From Nocardioides gansuensis (GTDB lineage Bacteria > Actinomycetota > Actinomycetes > Propionibacteriales > Nocardioidaceae), in NCBI RefSeq assembly GCF_003076135.1, contig NZ_QDGZ01000001.1:744001-808000 (forward strand): a DNA stretch of 64,000 nt. The letters run 5' to 3'. The position numbers and the translations under genes were made by a program. Positions 51,297-59,997 of this stretch are shown here, piece by piece. Each line of letters begins with the position of its first letter. Within the stretch, counting starts at the first letter, position 1. Under the pieces are notes generated by a model that ran no database searches, was not told the origin of the DNA, and saw only the letters and a program-made list of their open reading frames with translations.

Positions 51297-53444
51297 TCAG
51301 TGCACGGTCTCGAGGGGCTCCTCCGCCGCCTCCGCCGTGAGCTCCTCGTCGGCCGTGTCGAGCTTGCTCGGCCACCAGATCTTCCCGCCCAGGTCCATGT
51401 TGATCGCGGTGACGAGCACCGAGCGGACCACCATGGTGTCCAGGATGACGCCGAGGGCGACCGCGACGCCGAGCTCGGCCAGGAAGACGACCGGGATCGT
51501 GCCCAGCACCAGGAAGGTCGCGGCCAGCACCAGCCCCGCCGAGGTGATCACGCCGCCGGTGGAGGCGAGGGCCACCAGTGAGCCCTTGCGGGTGCCGGAC
51601 TCCATGGTCTCCTCGCGGACCCGGGTCATCAGGAAGATGTTGTAGTCGATGCCCAGGGCGACCAGGAACACGAACGCGAACAGCGGGAAGCCCGGATCCG
51701 AGCCGGCGAAGCCGAAGACGTATTCGAAGAGCAGCGACGAGATGCCCATCGCGGCGCCGAAGGAGAGCACCACCGTCGCGATCAGGATCAGCGGGGCGAC
51801 CAGCGACCGCAGCAGGGCCATCAGGATCAGGAACACCACGAGCAGGATGATCGGGATGATCACGATGTTGTCCCGGTTGGCCGCGTCCTTGGTGTCGAGG
51901 TAGAAGGCCGAGCCGCCACCGACGAGGGCGTCGGCACCGTCGATCGCGTGCACGGTGTCCCGCACCCGCTCCACCGTGGCGAACGCCTCGGCCGAGGCCG
52001 GGTCGGACCCGATCGCCGCCTCCACGAACGTCACGCCGTCGGCCGTGACGGGCGCCTTGGGCGGCTCCACGTTGTCCAGGCCCGTCAGCGCGTCGACGAT
52101 GGCGTCCTCGCTGCCGGCATTGGCCACCACCATCACGGTGTTGGACTGGTCGACCAGGCCGGCGTCCTCCAGCACCTTCTGGCCGGTGATCGACTGGAAC
52201 TCCTGGGTGTAGGAGTCCTCGGTCGCCAGGCCGTTGGTGTCGAGGCGCAGCAGGCCCAGGCACGCCACCCCGAGGATGACGCTGGTGACGACCCAGACCC
52301 GCCGGGGCCGCGGCGTGATCCAGCGGCCGACCTTCGCCCACAGGCCGGCCTGGGTCGGCTCGGCGGAGCCGAACCCGGGGCGACGGGGCCAGAAGATCCA
52401 CCTGCCGGTGATCACCAGGAGGGCGGGCAGCAGGGTCACCATCACCACGAAGGTGACGCCGATGCCGATCGCCGCCACCGGGCCGAGGCCGGCGGTGGAG
52501 TTCATGTCGGCGAAGAGCAGGCAGAGCATGCCCAGCGCGACGGTGGCGGCGCTCGCCAGGATCGCCGGGGCGGCCCGGTGGAGCGCGAAGGCCATCGCCT
52601 CGTGGCGGTCCTCGTGGCGGCGCAGCTCCTCGCGGTAGCGGGCGACGAGCAGGAGGGCATAGTCGGTGCCGGCGCCGATCACCAGGATCGTCAGGATGGC
52701 GTAGGACTGGCCGTTGACGGTGAGGTCGGCATACCTGGCGAGGAAGTAGATGAGCGCCTGCGACACGAACAGCGCGACGACGGCGCTGAAGATCGGCAGG
52801 ATCCACAGCACCGGGCTTCGGTAGGTGAACAGCAGGATCAGCACCACGATGCCGAGCGTGGCGCCGAGGAGCGTGGTGTCGATGCCGCCGAAGGCCTCGG
52901 CTGCGTCGGCGGCCTGGCCGCCTGCCCCCGCGACGTAGACGTCCACGCCGTCGATCTGCGCGGCGTCACGCAGGTCGTCGGCGATGTCGGGCATCTTGTT
53001 CCACCCGTCGGCACCGAGGTCGAAGGTGACCATCGTCTGGGCAACCGTGCCGTCCTCGGAGACGGCGGGCGACCCGAACTGCTCGGCCAAGGCGGGGCTG
53101 ACGACGGGTGGCCTCTTGCCCTCAACGGGCTCCGGCACTCCCTCCATGGCGGCGAACTCGCGGGCGTCCTGCTCGATGGCCTCGCGGTCGGCCTCGGTCA
53201 GGCCGCCGTCGCGGTGGTAGACCACCAGGGTGGGGATGGCGTTGGGGTCCTGGAAGGGTGCGAGCTTCTCGAAGGCACGGGTGGACTCCGCCGACTCGGG
53301 CAGCCACGAGGAGGCCTCGTTGTTCTGCACGTCGGCCAGCTTGGCCGCGAAGACGAAGGAGCCGCCGAACACGGCGAGCCAGGCCACGAGCACGATCCAC
53401 TTGGTCACAGGGCCGGTCAGCTTGCCGGCGATCTGACGATGCAT
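51297..53444 (-). CDS. MMPL/RND-type membrane transporter
   Basis: A 715-residue polytopic protein of the MMPL group, with about twelve transmembrane helices in two repeats, each with a large outer loop after its first helix (about 35-180 and 380-510). The signatures ILVIGAGTDYALLLVARYREELR and FVFLVALGIDYNIFLMTRVREE are the conserved fourth-helix motifs that carry the proton-relay Asp. Relatives export lipids or drugs with the proton gradient. The ATG at 53444 overlaps a palindrome; TTG 53450 is an alternative. It converges on the ASST-like gene six bases away. Confidence 0.93.
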   Translation of the reverse strand: MHRQIAGKLTGPVTKWIVLVAWLAVFGGSFVFAAKLADVQNNEASSWLPESAESTRAFEKLAPFQDPNAIPTLVVYHRDGGLTEADREAIEQDAREFAAMEGVPEPVEGKRPPVVSPALAEQFGSPAVSEDGTVAQTMVTFDLGADGWNKMPDIADDLRDAAQIDGVDVYVAGAGGQAADAAEAFGGIDTTLLGATLGIVVLILLFTYRSPVLWILPIFSAVVALFVSQALIYFLARYADLTVNGQSYAILTILVIGAGTDYALLLVARYREELRRHEDRHEAMAFALHRAAPAILASAATVALGMLCLLFADMNSTAGLGPVAAIGIGVTFVVMVTLLPALLVITGRWIFWPRRPGFGSAEPTQAGLWAKVGRWITPRPRRVWVVTSVILGVACLGLLRLDTNGLATEDSYTQEFQSITGQKVLEDAGLVDQSNTVMVVANAGSEDAIVDALTGLDNVEPPKAPVTADGVTFVEAAIGSDPASAEAFATVERVRDTVHAIDGADALVGGGSAFYLDTKDAANRDNIVIIPIILLVVFLILMALLRSLVAPLILIATVVLSFGAAMGISSLLFEYVFGFAGSDPGFPLFAFVFLVALGIDYNIFLMTRVREETMESGTRKGSLVALASTGGVITSAGLVLAATFLVLGTIPVVFLAELGVAVALGVILDTMVVRSVLVTAINMDLGGKIWWPSKLDTADEELTAEAAEEPLETVH

Positions 53445-53459
53445 GCTCAAAGTTGAGCA
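53444..53459. promoter_or_regulatory. Palindromic operator candidate at the MMPL start codon
   Basis: TGCTCAA-AG-TTGAGCA is a perfect 7-bp-arm inverted repeat covering the first base of the start codon and the bases just upstream. MMPL exporters are often controlled by adjacent TetR- or MarR-like repressors; no such gene is in the window. Confidence 0.5.
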
Positions 53460-53495
53460 GATCCCGGGGACGCTCGCATCCGATATCTCCCTGAG

Positions 53496-53522
53496 GCGAC
53501 CCCGAGATCGTCTCGGGGTCGC
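53496..53522. repeat. Strong 12-bp hairpin in the MMPL/LysM divergent region
   Basis: GCGACCCCGAGA (53496-53507) pairs perfectly with TCTCGGGGTCGC (53511-53522) around a TCG loop. It lies between two divergent genes, where a terminator is not expected. The 196-base region also holds TACACT (53596-53601), a plausible -10 for the LysM gene. Confidence 0.7.
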
Positions 53523-53640
53523 TCACTCCGCCGGGAAGGATTCCGGCACTCAGGGCCGCCGCGTCCGGCTGAAGACAAGCGCCCGGTCTGGTTCCTACAC
53601 TCGCCAGACGGGCACCGGGCCCATCTCGGGAGGGGAACTC

Positions 53641-54153
53641 ATGGGACTCATCACGGACGTGCGGGTGCGGCAGCCCGCGAAGCACGACCTCGTCGGCCGC
53701 CGGTTCGTGGTCACCGGCATCGGCAACGGCTTCGAGGGGACGATCGGCATCCGGGTGCTCGATGCCCGTGGCCGCGTGCTGGTGACCGACTTCGCCCAGT
53801 CCAGCGGCGGCATGGCGGGGATCGGCGAGTTCTCCACCCGGATCACCGTGCCCGACCCGCCGCGCGACGGGAGCCGGCTCACCCTGCAGGTCTTCGGCGA
53901 CAACCCCGGCCTGCCCGATGAAGGACCGAGCCCCGGCTTCAACCTGCGTGAGGTCGAGATCATCATGTTCGCGGACCTGCAGGGCTGGCTGCTCTACCGC
54001 GTCGAGCCGGGCGACACCCTGAGCGGCATCGTCCGCAAGGTGAAGGACTTCGGCCGGGTCACGGCCAGGCAGATCGTCGCGGCCAACCCGAGGATCGCCG
54101 ATCCCGACCACATCGAGGTCGGCTGGCGGCTGCGCATTCCGCTGCGCGGCTGA
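53641..54153 (+). CDS. Gmad2-like immunoglobulin domain plus LysM protein
   Basis: 170 residues. The first 115 form a beta-rich domain of the Gmad2 type (VGRRFVVTGIGNGFEGTIGIRVLDARG, then EFSTRITV), and the last 50 are a LysM domain (YRVEPGDTLSGIV to GWRLRIPL) that binds peptidoglycan or related glycans. There is no clear signal peptide, so how it leaves the cell, if it does, is unclear. The ATG at 53641 has GGAGGGGA upstream. It converges on the SARP-STAND gene. Confidence 0.85.
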   Translation: MGLITDVRVRQPAKHDLVGRRFVVTGIGNGFEGTIGIRVLDARGRVLVTDFAQSSGGMAGIGEFSTRITVPDPPRDGSRLTLQVFGDNPGLPDEGPSPGFNLREVEIIMFADLQGWLLYRVEPGDTLSGIVRKVKDFGRVTARQIVAANPRIADPDHIEVGWRLRIPLRG

Positions 54154-54162
54154 CTCGGCCGG

Positions 54163-57100
54163 CTACTGCGGGCAGGTCTCGCGGAACGGCAGGTCGCCGA
54201 AGTGCTCCCGCCACTCGGCCTGAGTGAAGTCGCGCCCGGCCGCGGCGCATGCGAATTCGATGGCGCGCTCGAAGTTCGGCTCCCAGACGTAGACGGCGGG
54301 GTCCCTCCACCACGGAGCGATCAGGATCGACTGGCCGTCGGCACCGAACACGGGCGAGCTGAGGACGGAATGCGGCACGCGCACCCGGGCCGTGATCGTC
54401 GCCCCCGCCACGTCCCACAAGGCCACGTCGCCGTCGAAGCCACCGGAGACGAGGCGCCGGCCATCGGGGGAGAACGCGACCCAGCCCGCCCCGCCGGGAA
54501 TGCGCTCGGGCGGGCGCACCGGCCGACCGGTCTCCAGGTCGATGACCTGGACGTGGCCCTCGCTCGCGAGCGCGGCATGACGTCCGTCGGGCGAGTAGGC
54601 GAGGTGGTAGACGAACCCGAGATCCAGGGGGCCCTCGTCCACGACATTCCCCTCCTCGAGGTCGACCAGCGCCCACTTCTCCACGTCGTTCTTCCAGAAG
54701 CCCGACTCGTCCGCGCCGCCCACGATGGCGAACACGTGCCGGTCGTCGGGACCCGCGACGGCCCACGCCGTGCCACCGAGGTCCACGGGCACGCCGACTG
54801 GAGCCATGGAGGTCGCGTCCACCATCACCAGCCGTCCGGTGGCCTCCGACAACACCATCCGGTCCCCGCTCGGCATGAAGCCTGCGTCGATCGTGTCCCC
54901 GTCCACCGGCTCCTCCAGGACAAGGCGACCGGTCGCGTCCCACGCGCGTACGGCGTCGCCGATGACCTGCGCGAACCGCGTACCGGCTCGGTTCCAGGAG
55001 CCGGAGGCCCCCACGCCCTGCCCATCGTCGAACGTCGTCGTCCGCACCGTGCCGGTCGGGACGTCGAGCAGCGCGAGCTGTTCGAGCGCGAAGCTGTCGC
55101 CGCAGACGTCGTAGGCCACCTTGGTCCCGTCGAGCGCCGGGACGGTCAGGCAGGCGCCGCCGTCCCCCGTCCAGGGCAGGTCTGGGAGGCTCTCCCGCGC
55201 CAGGTAGCGCCGGTTGCCTGTCACGTCCCACTCGCGGACCGCCCCGTCCATGGAGGCGGACACCACCGTTGCTCCTCGCGCGTCCAGGTCCGCCGCGCCC
55301 GAGCTTCCCTCGGCGAGCTGCAGCCTCAACCTCTGCTCACCAGTCCGGACGTCCCACACCGCGGCGTCGCGGTCGTGCCAGATGACGGTGAGCACGCGCC
55401 GCCCGTCGTCGCTGAACCGCAGGCCACCCTGCGTCCCGGACAGGCGGAGCCGGTGCAGGACGTCTCCCGTGCGGCCATCGCGCAGCAGCGTGTCTCCGGC
55501 GGAGCCCCGTCCCTGCGCCACGACTCGACCGTCCGGGCTCAGCTCGACGACACCGAACGCCGCCTCCGTCTCGGTGGCGAGCATCCTCGTCCGGCCTGAC
55601 TCCAGGTCGTGGACCCGAAGGTCGGGCGCGACGCTGTAGACCCGCAGACCGTCAGGAGACAACGCTGCCGACGCCCAGCCCTCGGCGTTGGTGAGGTCCA
55701 CCGCAGCCACCGGCGACGACGGACGTGCGGTGTCCCAGACGAAGGCCGTCGTGGACCGTGCCTCCCATTCGCGCTCCCCCCGGACCATCCGGTTGAGGAC
55801 CGCCACTAGGCGCGCGCCGTCCTGGCTGAACTTCAGGTCGATCGTCTGCCAGCGGCCCGGGCCCATGCCCCCGGGCTGGACCGGTGCCGGCTCGAGGGTC
55901 ATGGGTTCGAGCAGCGCCACCGGTTGTCTGCTGAGTGCTGTGTAGGCAACCGCCAGATGCCGCCCGTCGGCGCTGAAGCGCATCGGGCGGACCTCCTCCG
56001 CTTCGTTGTCCCTCGAGCCCACCTGACGCTCCGCCACCTGCGCACCCGAGGTGAGATCGAGGAGTCGCACGTGGTGGTGCGTGTCCAGCACGGCGACATG
56101 TCGGCCGTCGGGATGTACGTCGAGGGTTCGCGGGTCGCTTCCCGCCAGAGGCGAGGACGCCACAAGTGCGGGCTGCTTCGAGAGGACACCGATGAGGCTG
56201 CCCAAGGTCTGTGTGGACTGGTCCGTCCGGACGGCCGCGACGCCGAGCAGCAAGGACTCCTCGAAGTCGTCGATGACGAGCGCAGTGGCAGCTGCCCGGC
56301 GGGCCAGCGCGCGCGTCTCGGACGCCGCAGCAGCTACAGCACTGTCCTGGGCGCGGACGGACTGCAGGGCGGCCAGACCACCTGCCACCAGGGCAAGGAC
56401 CAGCAGCACCACCGCTCCGGCGATCACGACCCGCTGCCGCTGGATCAGCCTGGCCTGCTCGCGCGCTCGCTCTGCAGCGCTGCGCTCCTCCACGTCCGCC
56501 AGCTCACGGGAGGCATCGAGGAAGTCGCGCTCCACCGGGGTCAGAGCGGGTGCGGTCGACCTCTGCCAGTCCAGGGCGCGCACGAGGCGGGGTCCGCGGT
56601 AGAGCTCGCTTTCGGGTCGGCCCATGCCGTCCCAGGCGTCAGCCGCCGAGCTGAGATGGTGGAGCAGCCGTCGACCCTCGACGTCGTCCTCCAACCAGCC
56701 CTGCAAGCGAGGCCAGTTGCGGGCCAGCGACTCGTGGGTGATCTCGAGGACGCCCTCGTCGCTGGTCACGAGCCGGGCGGCCACGAGCATCTCGATGAGC
56801 CGATCGTGCTCGGGGTCGGTGCCGACCAGCCGCCGGGCCACGCGGGTGCGCACCGGCTCGCCCTCGCTGCCCGGCGACAGCAGGCGCAGGACCAGGTCGC
56901 GGAGCACGTGCCGCCGCTCCGGCTCGACGTGGGCATAGAGCCGCTCCGCCGATTGGGCGACCGCGCCGCGGATGCCGCCGCTCTCGCGGTAGCCGTCGAC
57001 GGTCAGGGTGTTGCCCTCACGGCGCTTCCAGGTCTCCATCAAGGCGTGGGACAGCAGCGGCAGTGCACCCGGATCGGCGCGCACCTCGGTGACGAGCAGG

Positions 57101-58407
57101 TCGACCAGGCCAGGCTCGAGCACCAGGCCCGCCTGTCGGGCCGGCCCCACGACGGCAAGCCGCAGCCCCTCCTCGTCGAGCCCGCCGACAAGGTAGAGGC
57201 CGCGCTCGACGAGACGGCTCAGGGACGAGTACGCCGTGAGGTCGGCGAGCCGGTCAGCGCGAAGCACGACGATGACCGGCCGGGACGAAGCCTCCACGGT
57301 CAGGGCCTCGGCGAACTCCTGGCGCTCCGCCGCGTCCTCGCACAGCGTGAACAGCTCCTCGCACTGGTCCACGAGCAGGGCGTCCTGCTTTCCCGCGCCG
57401 CCGAGGCTGGTGAGCGCGTGCATCGGGTGCTGGCCGGGCGTGATGGCCAAGCACCTCGTGCCCCGCTGCGCGAGGCGCGCCGCGATGCCGGCCCGGGCCA
57501 GCGAGGACTTGCCGGAGCCCGAGGGCCCGACCAGGGCGAGCAGGCTGCCGGTGCGCAGCAGCTCGACGCAGGAGTCGATCTCGTCGTCGCGGCCGAAGAA
57601 CCGGTCGGCGTCCCCCACGTCGTACGACTTGAGGCCCTGCCACGGACACACGGCCATGCTGGGGGCCGGGGCCGACGTCGCCATGAGCGAGGGATCCTGG
57701 CGCAGGATCGCCTGCTCGAGCGCGAGGACGTCGCGGCCCGGGTCGATCCCGAGCTGCTCGGAGAGGACAGCCCGCAGCTGGTGGATGGTGCGGAGCGCGT
57801 CCGCCTGCTGGCCGGACTGGTATTGCGCCCGCGCCAGCAGCGCCCATCGCAGCTCGCGCAGGGGCGCGGCCCGCACCAGCGACTGCGCGTCGGCGACCAC
57901 CTCGCGGTGCCGCCCGGCCCGCAGCTGGGCATCCAGCCGCAGCTCCTCCGCCGTGAGCCGTAGCTCCGCCAGCCGGCGCGCCTCCGTCCTGGCGGGCGGC
58001 CACTCCTCGAGGTCGGGGAAGGGCATGCCCCGCCACGACGCGAGGGCCTCGCCGAGGACGAACGACGCGCGGTCGGTCTCGCCGAGCGTCAGCAGCTCCT
58101 GAGCCCTGGCGACGTCCCGTTCGAAGCGCCGGGCGTCGATCTGGTCGGCGGGAACCCTCAGCACGTAGCCGTCTGGTGTGGTCTCGATCGCGTCCTGGCC
58201 GAGCAGCCGGCGGAGCCGGACCACGCAGCCCTGGAGGACCTTCCCGGCCGAGGCCGGCGGCGAGTCGCCCCAGAGGGCATCGGCGAGCTGGTCGACGCTC
58301 ACCCGTTGGCCCGGGTGGGTGACCAGCGCTTCGAGGACCACTCGATCCCTGCGACTGAGCCGTGCCGAGCCATCGACGGTCAGCGGACCGAGGGCATGGA
58401 TGCCCAC
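54163..58407 (-). CDS. AfsR-like SARP regulator with STAND ATPase, transmembrane helix and WD40-like propeller
   Basis: 1,414 residues. Order: OmpR-type winged helix (about 1-95; VLEALVTHPGQRVSVDQLADALWG), bacterial transcriptional activation domain (about 100-250; RRFERDVARAQELL to YQSGQQADALRTIHQLR), STAND NTPase (about 265-600; FFGRDDEI, Walker A GPSGSGKSSLA near 291-301, DALLVDQCEELF), an Arg/Glu coiled segment, one hydrophobic helix (about 659-681; VVIAGAVVLLVLALVAGGLAAL), and WD40-like repeats to the end (about 735-1400; LSPDGRVVA, FSPDGRRLVSGG). The helix would put the DNA-binding half inside and the propeller outside, a one-piece sensor-regulator. GTG 58407 gives the normal winged-helix start; the frame runs on to 59319 without homology. 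SARP-like boxes lie just upstream. Confidence 0.9.
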   Translation of the reverse strand: MGIHALGPLTVDGSARLSRRDRVVLEALVTHPGQRVSVDQLADALWGDSPPASAGKVLQGCVVRLRRLLGQDAIETTPDGYVLRVPADQIDARRFERDVARAQELLTLGETDRASFVLGEALASWRGMPFPDLEEWPPARTEARRLAELRLTAEELRLDAQLRAGRHREVVADAQSLVRAAPLRELRWALLARAQYQSGQQADALRTIHQLRAVLSEQLGIDPGRDVLALEQAILRQDPSLMATSAPAPSMAVCPWQGLKSYDVGDADRFFGRDDEIDSCVELLRTGSLLALVGPSGSGKSSLARAGIAARLAQRGTRCLAITPGQHPMHALTSLGGAGKQDALLVDQCEELFTLCEDAAERQEFAEALTVEASSRPVIVVLRADRLADLTAYSSLSRLVERGLYLVGGLDEEGLRLAVVGPARQAGLVLEPGLVDLLVTEVRADPGALPLLSHALMETWKRREGNTLTVDGYRESGGIRGAVAQSAERLYAHVEPERRHVLRDLVLRLLSPGSEGEPVRTRVARRLVGTDPEHDRLIEMLVAARLVTSDEGVLEITHESLARNWPRLQGWLEDDVEGRRLLHHLSSAADAWDGMGRPESELYRGPRLVRALDWQRSTAPALTPVERDFLDASRELADVEERSAAERAREQARLIQRQRVVIAGAVVLLVLALVAGGLAALQSVRAQDSAVAAAASETRALARRAAATALVIDDFEESLLLGVAAVRTDQSTQTLGSLIGVLSKQPALVASSPLAGSDPRTLDVHPDGRHVAVLDTHHHVRLLDLTSGAQVAERQVGSRDNEAEEVRPMRFSADGRHLAVAYTALSRQPVALLEPMTLEPAPVQPGGMGPGRWQTIDLKFSQDGARLVAVLNRMVRGEREWEARSTTAFVWDTARPSSPVAAVDLTNAEGWASAALSPDGLRVYSVAPDLRVHDLESGRTRMLATETEAAFGVVELSPDGRVVAQGRGSAGDTLLRDGRTGDVLHRLRLSGTQGGLRFSDDGRRVLTVIWHDRDAAVWDVRTGEQRLRLQLAEGSSGAADLDARGATVVSASMDGAVREWDVTGNRRYLARESLPDLPWTGDGGACLTVPALDGTKVAYDVCGDSFALEQLALLDVPTGTVRTTTFDDGQGVGASGSWNRAGTRFAQVIGDAVRAWDATGRLVLEEPVDGDTIDAGFMPSGDRMVLSEATGRLVMVDATSMAPVGVPVDLGGTAWAVAGPDDRHVFAIVGGADESGFWKNDVEKWALVDLEEGNVVDEGPLDLGFVYHLAYSPDGRHAALASEGHVQVIDLETGRPVRPPERIPGGAGWVAFSPDGRRLVSGGFDGDVALWDVAGATITARVRVPHSVLSSPVFGADGQSILIAPWWRDPAVYVWEPNFERAIEFACAAAGRDFTQAEWREHFGDLPFRETCPQ

Positions 58408-58426
58408 CCGCTCAGGGTCTGTCCGC

Positions 58427-58489
58427 GGTATCGCCCGCGTCAACGGTCTCGATACCCGGTCGATACCGGTCCGGCCGCGCGGTGATACC
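58427..58489. promoter_or_regulatory. SARP-type operator: CGATACC heptamers at 11-bp spacing
   Basis: CGATACC occurs at 58450-58456 and 58461-58467, exactly 11 bp apart, and TGATACC at 58483-58489, a further 22 bp (two turns) on. The reverse copy GGTATCG is at 58427-58433. SARP activators bind direct heptamer repeats spaced 11 bp. The boxes lie between the SARP gene (start 58407) and the divergent small exported protein gene (58549), pointing to self-regulation and control of that gene. Confidence 0.72.
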
Positions 58490-58548
58490 GGCCGCTGCGA
58501 CAACGGAGGCATCGCGAGAACCACTCGCACCGAACCCAGGAGGAAGCC

Positions 58549-58971
58549 ATGTTCGTCCACAGCATCCGTGAGGACAGCAACCGCTGGTGGTGGACCAGTG
58601 CAGGAGCCGGAACCATCGCCTCGGCCTTCATCGCCGCCATCGTCGTCGCGCCGTCCGGGACCCACGCGATCCCGGCCGACCCGGCACCCGCCCCCGTCCA
58701 CGTCAGTGACGTCGCGCCGTCGATCGACGTCACGGGCACCCGGCCCTGCTTCATGGAGCGGGCCCACTGGAACATCGCCGTGGACGGCCCCGTCCCCCGG
58801 TGCGGTACTGCCTCCGCGAGCAGCTCGCCTACCGAGGCCAGGCGGCCGGCTCCGGCGGTGAAGTCCGCGTGCCCGCCTCGGGGCTCGATCACCGACGTCG
58901 GCGTCCCGTGGATCCCCCCGGTGCCGACCGGCTGCGACAGCATCGATCGCTGGTGGCGCTACGCCCGGTGA
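58549..58971 (+). CDS. Small exported or membrane-anchored protein, probable SARP target
   Basis: 140 residues, not recognised. It has a strong AGGAGG binding site eight bases before ATG 58549. The N-terminus (SIREDSNRWWWTSAG) is followed by a hydrophobic segment (about 18-35, AGTIASAFIAAIVVAP), then a Pro/Ala/Val linker, four cysteines (CFMERAHW, PRCGT, SACPP, TGCDS) and the end RWWRYAR. Cys-rich export suggests disulfides. The middle (residues about 84-115) also reads as a plausible peptide in the +1 frame, so paired compensating frameshifts cannot be excluded. It is divergent from the SARP gene and shares its box region. Confidence 0.65.
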   Translation: MFVHSIREDSNRWWWTSAGAGTIASAFIAAIVVAPSGTHAIPADPAPAPVHVSDVAPSIDVTGTRPCFMERAHWNIAVDGPVPRCGTASASSSPTEARRPAPAVKSACPPRGSITDVGVPWIPPVPTGCDSIDRWWRYAR

Positions 58972-58996: not shown

Positions 58997-59908
58997 TCAG
59001 CGGCGCAGGGCGGCGAGGATCCGGCGGGCCCGGGCGCCGGGGTGCCAGAAACTGCCCTCCTCGACCAGGTATTCCTCGCAGACCCCGCCGACTCGCAACA
59101 CGTCACCCCAGCGCGTCTGCACCAGCAGCATCTGGTTGTAGTAGTCCTCGAACTGACCGCCGCACGCCGGGTCCTTGAAGTGCTCCTGGTCCACGGTGTT
59201 GCGGGCCAGGTCCTCCAGCAGTACGCCGAGCTGGCGGCGCGGCACTTCTGCGGACCGCCACAGCGGGGCAGACGGGGCGTCGGGATGCCAGCAGGAGACC
59301 GCGCGCACGCCATCGGCAAGGGAGCCGGTCAGTGAGGGGGCCGGGCCGAGGGGTTCGTCGGCGTTGCAGTCGATCGGGGCGTTGGCGAGGCGACGGGGTG
59401 GCTCGCGGCCCTCGCGGCGTGCCTCGATGCGGGCGATGAAGTCCTCCAGGAGCACCTCGGCGCCGTCGTACGACGTGCCACCGACCTCGACGTCGCCGCA
59501 GCCGCCGGTGTCCCCGGACACCGAGGTCACGTCGCCGTCCGCCGTGGCGAGCAGGATCGTGTAGCCGTGGCCCCCCTGCGCCGTGCAGTAGTGGCCGTCG
59601 TCCGGCACCGGTTCGAGGCCGTTGATGGTCTCGACCAGGCCGGCGACGCCGTCGGTGAGGTCCTCCTGGGGAGGGCGCCACGCGAGGGAGCTGCTCACCT
59701 CGCAGATGCGGGCCTTCACGAAGTCGTTCGGCAGCGGCAGCCCCTCGGCCGGCTCGGCCGACCAGCCGCAGACCAGCCGGCCCGGCCTCCCGGTCGCCGA
59801 TTCCGAGGCCGACGGCGCGGTCGCCGTCGGCTCGTCGGACGACTCCTCGTCCGACCCCGCCGTGCACCCGGCCAGCACCAGCACGCCGACGAACAGCAAC
59901 CCCCTCAT
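58997..59908 (-). CDS. Lipoprotein of unknown function
   Basis: 303 residues. The signal peptide ends in the lipobox VLAGC, followed by a Ser/Glu/Thr linker and a domain of about 250 residues with eight cysteines (for example LVCGWS, ARICEV, HYCTAQ, GGCGD, DPACGGQFE, GGVCEEY), suggesting disulfides in the outer space. The family is not recognised. The ATG at 59908 is six bases after a GATCAT hexamer and gives a clean lipoprotein signal; upstream the frame is open to 60370 but overlaps the ABC gene. It converges on the small exported protein gene. Confidence 0.82.
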   Translation of the reverse strand: MRGLLFVGVLVLAGCTAGSDEESSDEPTATAPSASESATGRPGRLVCGWSAEPAEGLPLPNDFVKARICEVSSSLAWRPPQEDLTDGVAGLVETINGLEPVPDDGHYCTAQGGHGYTILLATADGDVTSVSGDTGGCGDVEVGGTSYDGAEVLLEDFIARIEARREGREPPRRLANAPIDCNADEPLGPAPSLTGSLADGVRAVSCWHPDAPSAPLWRSAEVPRRQLGVLLEDLARNTVDQEHFKDPACGGQFEDYYNQMLLVQTRWGDVLRVGGVCEEYLVEEGSFWHPGARARRILAALRR

Positions 59909-59997
59909 GTCCGGATGATCCGCCCGCCGAGACTGCTCCGCGAGGGCCAGCACGAGATCGAAGCCGAGTCGTGACTCGCCCGCAGCCCCGAAGGAGG

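Follow-up and report, generated by a model that had tools for sequence, protein, structure and literature searches.

A phased array of GATACC boxes upstream of a large SARP-family regulator gene in Nocardioides gansuensis is probably a dedicated SARP operator, at which the neighbouring regulator would bind the phased boxes and activate a divergent gene for a small exported protein. The presence of the array, its spacing, its constant geometry toward a -10 element, its near-confinement to a single promoter and its co-occurrence with the small gene are established by comparison of related sequences. The stretch of DNA that was analysed, referred to below as the window, has a length of 64,000 nucleotides.

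The Box Array in the Intergenic Stretch

Three direct boxes occupy the + strand between the two divergent genes. Box 1, CGATACC (58450..58456), reads GGTATCG toward the regulator gene and its register is kept in relatives. Box 2, again CGATACC (58461..58467), lies 11 bp past box 1, a phasing that is kept in relatives as well. Box 3, TGATACC (58483..58489), follows 22 bp past box 2 and is the final box ahead of the putative -10 element of the small gene. The original prediction of CGATACC-like direct boxes at phases 0, 11 and 33 is borne out exactly by the window sequence, with TGATACC as the third box. Four of the five GATACC hexamers in the 64-kb window fall in this intergenic stretch. The hexamer itself is found 5 times in the window vs. 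9.0 times expected from shuffles, while the pair GATACC-N5-GATACC, allowing at most one mismatch, is found once vs. 0.03 expected.

An inverted copy, GGTATCG (CGATACC on the - strand), is present at 58427..58433, in the spacer that separates the -35 from the -10 element of the regulator gene. It had been described as lying further on than the direct boxes, but in + coordinates it precedes them and it follows them only when the - strand is read. Because it is the sole inverted copy among 47 loci, without a counterpart in the other 46, it stands outside the conserved design and was dropped as a design element. Perhaps it is a chance or species-specific feature.

The Regulator and Its Own Promoter

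The regulator gene (54163..58407, - strand) has a GTG start and encodes a protein of 1414 aa, which consists of an OmpR-type DNA-binding domain with BTAD, an nSTAND1 NTPase, one TM segment and WD40 repeats. The N-terminus has the domain order of the SARP family, i.e., a winged helix (PF00486, 8e-9) followed by BTAD (PF03704, 2e-34). The NTPase matches PF20703 (E 1e-102) and the WD40 repeats were matched as well. The nearest solved structures by sequence are AfsR and EmbR chains (E 3e-26 to 2e-31). The protein is not an AfsR orthologue as defined by NCBIfam NF053617, to which it gives 124 bits vs. an equivalog cut-off of 1430. Within its own genome, the regulator is the single strong nSTAND1 match (345 bits vs. 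at most 28 for the runner-up) and one of four BTAD matches.

The TM segment, recognized by hydropathy, comprises residues 660-680 (56368..56430, - strand) and has a Lys/Arg-rich N-terminal flank, with five of these residues before the segment and one after it. All 15 analysed sequences longer than 1380 aa, the window's included, have a single TM segment whose N-terminal flank carries Lys/Arg, and 14 of these 15 have a C-terminal Cys pair. The charge distribution suggests an N-in/C-out topology, with DNA binding inside the cell and the WD40 part outside, and the regulator is apparently a membrane-anchored protein. One homolog (L125, identical to L068, in genome G052) has neither the array nor the small gene nor a detected TM segment; with its 1164-aa frame it may be a soluble relative.

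The promoter of the regulator gene in the window is TTGACG-18-GACCCT, with an 18-bp spacer. Its -35 element, TTGACG (58438..58443, - strand), corresponds to TTGAC (36 rows) or GTGAC (1 row), 29-33 nt ahead of the start, in 37 stacked regions, which were chosen for, and anchored on, this very element. The -10 element, GACCCT (58414..58419, - strand), aligns by inspection with GACTGT/GACAGT of relatives. It lies just 6 nt ahead of the GTG start codon and the regulator mRNA is therefore probably leaderless. Box 1 stands 6 bp from the -35 TTGACG. Since this promoter combines a TTGACG -35 of its own with what looks like a leaderless start, and since it can do without boxes, it is probably basal.

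On its other side, the regulator gene is followed directly by a convergent ORF with Gmad2 and LysM domains (53443-54153, +). The small gene is adjoined by a lipoprotein-like ORF of 304 aa (58997-59911, -) that has no Pfam match. Further neighbours are what we take to be an MMPL-like transporter and an ABC exporter pair.

Conservation Across Relatives

Homologs of the regulator (E ≤ 1e-40) are present in at least 25 of 147 congeneric genomes, at 45 or more places, and a search of the family (E ≤ 1e-60) found them in at least 22 of 294 genomes and at least 7 of 26 genera. These counts are lower bounds, because only the best 16 (congeneric) or the best 8 (family) candidates per genome were scored. 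The comparison covers 47 loci, 32 from these searches and 15 that were fetched. L057, from one scan of genome contigs (3 loci), was dropped as a homolog because it matches the WD40 part only.

Where the homologs among the 47 loci are closer, the boxes are found again near positions -81, -59 and -48 relative to the start. A set of 35 upstream regions, each 150 bp long, contains GATACC 75 times on one strand and once on the other, this single case being the window's inverted copy, and the spacing of 61 of the 65 box pairs in these regions equals 11, 22, 33 or 44 bp. Base-shuffled upstream regions contain a mean of 0.9 sites and 0 phased pairs. Judged from this comparison, the box array is under selection, and the boxes are very probably a docking site, as yet putative, of the neighbouring regulator. 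A chance repeat or an artefact of composition would be conceivable if relatives were ignored, as three 7-mers in 63 bp could coincide, and the remaining 194 congeneric genomes do contain 11 exact pairs. However, the array is far above background and its phasing is kept over dozens of diverged sequences; conservation thus refutes this explanation to near certainty.

Homologs with less than 48% identity (L041-L049, L069-L072) were omitted from the stacking. L055, L056, L060, L064 and L068 were omitted from the stacking, the spacing and the box-agreement counts and were restored for the tree and the co-occurrence score, to which L041, L042, L045 and L113 were also added. Outside the genus, six loci of the family were compared. 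Arrays are present in L108, L109 and L111, and L110 has a degenerate one; in L112 and L113 no array was found. L112 (G279) has the same upstream sequence as L056 (Nocardioides pocheonensis) of the same family, and was omitted from the tree as a repeat of it. In a Nitriliruptoraceae bin, the same layout is found in the form GGTAAC-N5-GGTAAC-N7-TTGAC. A different case is L029/L092 (G052), where an array-bearing SARP frame with an intact promoter is merely 513 aa long. This frame is truncated, frame-shifted or the result of a sequencing error.

The Divergent Small Gene as the Likeliest Target

The small gene (58549..58971, + strand) starts with ATG and encodes a protein of 140 aa that has the C-terminal sequence DRWWRYA and, to judge from a hydrophobic segment at its N-terminus, is exported or anchored; the product has no Pfam or NCBIfam match. 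The gene is preceded by the Shine-Dalgarno sequence AGGAGG (58538..58543, +) and by a putative -10 element, GACAAC (58499..58504, +), which lies 8 bp past GATACCG. On this side of the intergenic stretch, no conserved -35 was found in the 37 stacked regions, the conserved elements being the three boxes and a weak -10. The weakness of the putative -10 is illustrated by the T at position 6, which is present in only 13 of 39 regions.

The position of this -10 follows the boxes. The first base of the last box and that of the -10 are 15 nt apart, and position 2 of the -10 is an A in 31 of 39 regions when the last box is assigned by a fixed rule, i.e., as the better of two slots. A looser choice of the last box, apparently mistaken in seven or more rows (L027, L028, L052, L053, L058, L066, L107), gives 28 of 39. 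In the seven regions in which the last box lies one 11-bp slot farther out (L026, L030, L031, L032, L035, L062, L087), the A is kept in all seven. According to the available text of PMC10936776, SARP promoters have repeats 11 or 22 bp apart and a 3′ repeat 8 bp from the -10, and the geometry of the target promoter described here, with its inferred -10, fits the definition given there. The divergent gene for a small exported protein is the likeliest target of the array, because the predicted -10 is as far from the last box as published for SARPs and shifts together with it.

The small divergent ORFs of the compared loci (n=39) encode 63 to 250 aa, with a median of 89, those of L032 and L065 extending beyond the stretch analysed. 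An N-terminal hydrophobic segment is present in 38 of the 39, vs. 20 of 165 control windows, and a lipobox in 14. By sequence, the 39 ORFs form 17 groups, with 12 and 9 members in the two largest. Because position and export are kept while the sequence differs, the small proteins appear to be fast-evolving partners.

The array and the small gene occur together. Of 46 loci with TTGAC, 37 have both the array and a small ORF (Fisher p 0.003). For this count a fixed-register position score replaced a strict five-variant box criterion, which in the tree had scored L036, L052, L060, L061 and L110 as array-less despite visible degenerate arrays. These data bear on the main alternative, in which the array is chiefly autoregulatory: the SARP would control its own leaderless promoter and the small gene would be a bystander. 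We regard this as possible, though clearly less likely than activation of the small gene. It is consistent with the fixed distance between the proximal boxes and TTGAC in most loci and with three of the 46 loci (L055, L060, L099) that keep boxes while a small ORF was not detected. The boxes of PimR, too, do not overlap a -35 in the promoters covered by the available part of PMC5930380. Against it, four loci (L056, L064, L068, L113) have kept the regulator gene and TTGAC and have neither array nor small ORF. Moreover, L030 and L062, the two loci with a small ORF and without an array in the fixed register, both carry an array that is shifted one slot relative to TTGAC, whereas its distance to the small-gene -10 is unchanged. 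In the tree, L056 nests among the array-bearing L040, L065 and L066 with support 100/99. L099 has two intact boxes, and the ABC exporter adjoining its promoter looks, by eye, like the one in the window.

A Probable, Nearly Private Operator

In the genome of the window, the exact CGATACC pair at 11 bp occurs in just two places, so that the pairs are not equally frequent throughout the genome; the second place is inside an ORF. This ORF is presumably DUF488-like. Three other pairs with at most one mismatch sit in ORFs as well, as seen by eye. With two mismatches, 17 places are found vs. 4 for a reversed control.

The confinement extends to relatives. In 215 congeneric genomes, the pattern GGTATC-N5-GGTATC-N7-TTGAC with at most one mismatch has 28 matches, in 21 genomes, and the control has 0. 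Directly ahead of a SARP start are 26 of these matches, as judged from an alignable SARP domain and not from whole genes, and by eye the other two precede apparent SARP remnants (L091, L100). In these remnants the first residues are readable, after which stops appear or the frame is lost; the small gene of L091 is still open. Exact 11-bp pairs number 26 in the 21 array-bearing genomes, i.e., 24 at SARP starts, one at a remnant and the one in the ORF of the window's own genome. Exact 22-bp pairs number 18, of which 16 are at SARP starts, one precedes a further target in genome G048 and one is in an ORF. Reversed controls for both spacings give 0 in the 21 genomes. As these genomes were picked for having the array, the enrichment shows where the pairs are located and not how frequent the system is. 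Across all 215 genomes, 37 exact 11-bp pairs are found, the 26 mentioned and 11 elsewhere; these 11 form the background and have no SARP within 1.5 kb.

A search for CGATACC pairs had been proposed as a way to define a regulon. Such a search reveals no wide regulon: the near-confinement of exact pairs to the intergenic region of the regulator speaks against a genome-wide one, and the location of 25 of the 26 pairs at a regulator promoter or remnant points to a nearly private operator instead. Two of the background loci (L177, L179) have pairs of the form GGTATCA-N3-TGGTATC near ATGGCC, with no SARP nearby, which are perhaps the operator of another regulator.

Genome G048 has a further array, with CAACGT 9 nt past the last GATACC. 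It precedes an exported VCPO-like gene (PF22778, 29.6 bits, cut-off 27), which lies about 70 bp past the SARP stop codon. This gene (L172:5343-6659, -), in which VCPO is a haloperoxidase-type second domain, would represent a second kind of target. The array has a -10 and a target and no TTGAC, which speaks against control of the regulator's own promoter as the main role of such arrays.

Box Variants and Their Recognition

The boxes within one promoter resemble each other beyond the core. Boxes 1 and 2 share the base ahead of GATACC in 21 of 31 cases (vs. 8.8 expected, p 5e-5), and boxes 2 and 3 share it in 13 of 21 (p 0.001). The agreement extends one base farther out and is not seen deeper in the spacers; the spacer columns serve as a control for these shuffles, which ignore relatedness. 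Parts of the GATACC core also vary between paralogs and agree within one promoter. In genome G089, GGATACC in L034 contrasts with CTATACC/GTGTACC in L053, and in G142 three paralogs (L031, L051, L058) have CGATACC, GGATACC and CTATACC. G119 is a counter-example, as both of its paralogs have CGATACC. L127 and L128 are two SARP and array cassettes about 5 kb apart, with the boxes GGTATCC vs. GGTATA/GGTACA. Since paralogs often have their own box variant, the circuits in one genome could be insulated from each other. The suggestion that the regulator may define another specificity is supported in that the heptamer is distinct from the AfsR and PimR boxes, but CGATACC does not represent one specificity, as it varies between paralogs.

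These variants also bear on the identity of the binding protein. At the afsS promoter, the 11-bp repeats bound by PhoP overlap with those bound by AfsR (reported in the available part of PMC10972967), and the boxes could likewise be bound by another 11-bp-repeat regulator, e.g., an OmpR-type protein such as PhoP, and not by the adjacent SARP. A general regulator should, however, recognize one sequence at many sites, whereas the array is nearly private to one promoter and differs between paralogs in the same genome (G089, G142), which makes this improbable.

In the regulator itself, the variable base shows covariation with helix residues 57, 58 and 60, which rank 4th, 8th and 15th of 220 columns, although this covariation is confounded by phylogeny, because columns outside the helix rank equally high. 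By alignment, the AfsR contact residues T88 and R92 correspond to residues 60 and 64. Taken by analogy, the AfsR contacts and the helix covariation would orient the protomers toward the regulator gene, opposite to what the promoter geometry indicates. With this orientation autoregulation could be the main role of the array, and the contact mapping is an argument in its favour.

Proposed Mechanism and Comparison With Known Systems

In the preferred reading, i.e., activation of the small gene, winged-helix/BTAD protomers would bind one face of the DNA at boxes 11 and 22 bp apart. The last box would occupy the -35 place of the divergent gene, 8 bp ahead of its weak -10, and because of this position binding would recruit RNA polymerase to the small gene in the manner of AfsR, by which the small exported protein would be switched on. 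As the array is also 6 bp from the regulator's -35, autoregulation is possible and may coexist with this activation. Binding by the regulator, activation instead of repression, the membrane topology and sensing of a ligand by the WD40 part are what we infer from these arrangements.

The best-known role of SARPs is the activation of antibiotic clusters. The reading of the array as a SARP-type direct-repeat operator, as predicted, is supported, and its heptamer is unlike the boxes of AfsR and PimR. AfsR is similar in being a large SARP with a winged helix, BTAD and a STAND-type NTPase, in its 11-bp direct repeats, in the 3′ repeat 8 bp from the -10, which is a general rule, and in acting on a small gene. 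In Streptomyces coelicolor this small gene, afsS, lies beside afsR. The afs repeats, however, are an adjacent pair overlapping the -35, whereas the last gap here is usually 22 bp, and the present system has an exported target and a nearly private operator. In addition, NOD and TPR parts are ascribed to AfsR in the available text of PMC10936776, and the afs box, given as CGTT(T/C)ATCGNN in the accessible part of PMC10972967, differs from GATACC.

PimR provides a second comparison, for which the available part of PMC5930380 is the source. PimR resembles the present system in its heptamer repeats with 4-bp spacers, in the unique target pimM and in boxes located off the -35, and the genes for PnR2 and ChxA, SARP-LAL proteins described there, are divergent from the upstream gene. 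It differs in its heptamer, CGGCAAG, in its LuxR-type ATPase half and in its occurrence in antibiotic clusters; a TM segment or an exported partner is absent from the description in that part of the paper.

Thirdly, the regulator would resemble the one-component CadC/ToxR and the co-component ToxR-ToxS and VtrA-VtrC systems, which have a cytoplasmic winged helix, one TM segment and an external domain, and in ToxR-ToxS and VtrA-VtrC the gene of a fast-evolving exported partner lies alongside (both according to the available part of PMC9214523). Here, BTAD and nSTAND1 are inserted between the helix and the TM segment, the partner gene is divergent and not overlapping, and the system is actinobacterial; the proposed likeness is one of function and does not imply homology. 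The best reading by analogy would be a dedicated SARP circuit that works like a membrane signalling cassette of the one- or co-component type. More tentatively, and with some doubt on our part, there might be a family of actinobacterial membrane-anchored SARP receptors in which the WD40 propeller outside the cell senses the small exported protein switched on by the receptor's own operator, either directly or via the condition of that protein, giving insulated feedback cassettes with paralog-specific operators that resemble co-component systems on a SARP/STAND chassis.

Among the matches listed in a search of the open-access literature, no paper on BTAD-nSTAND1-WD40 regulators or on a GATACC operator was found. 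In a word search of the available text, PMC8195603 and PMC10907252 name nSTAND1 and WD40, and the words BTAD and SARP are absent. The kind of operator is already known; new are the membrane-anchored architecture that seems to go with it, the nearly private target and the paralog-specific boxes. A SARP-type operator is in this way tied, in several genera of one family, to an exported protein and an apparent membrane-anchored receptor. The paralog-specific boxes, of which several sets can be present in one genome, are natural data for the DNA-recognition code of SARPs and for orthogonal promoters. Altogether, these elements open the testable question of what actinobacterial STAND-WD40 receptors sense and control.
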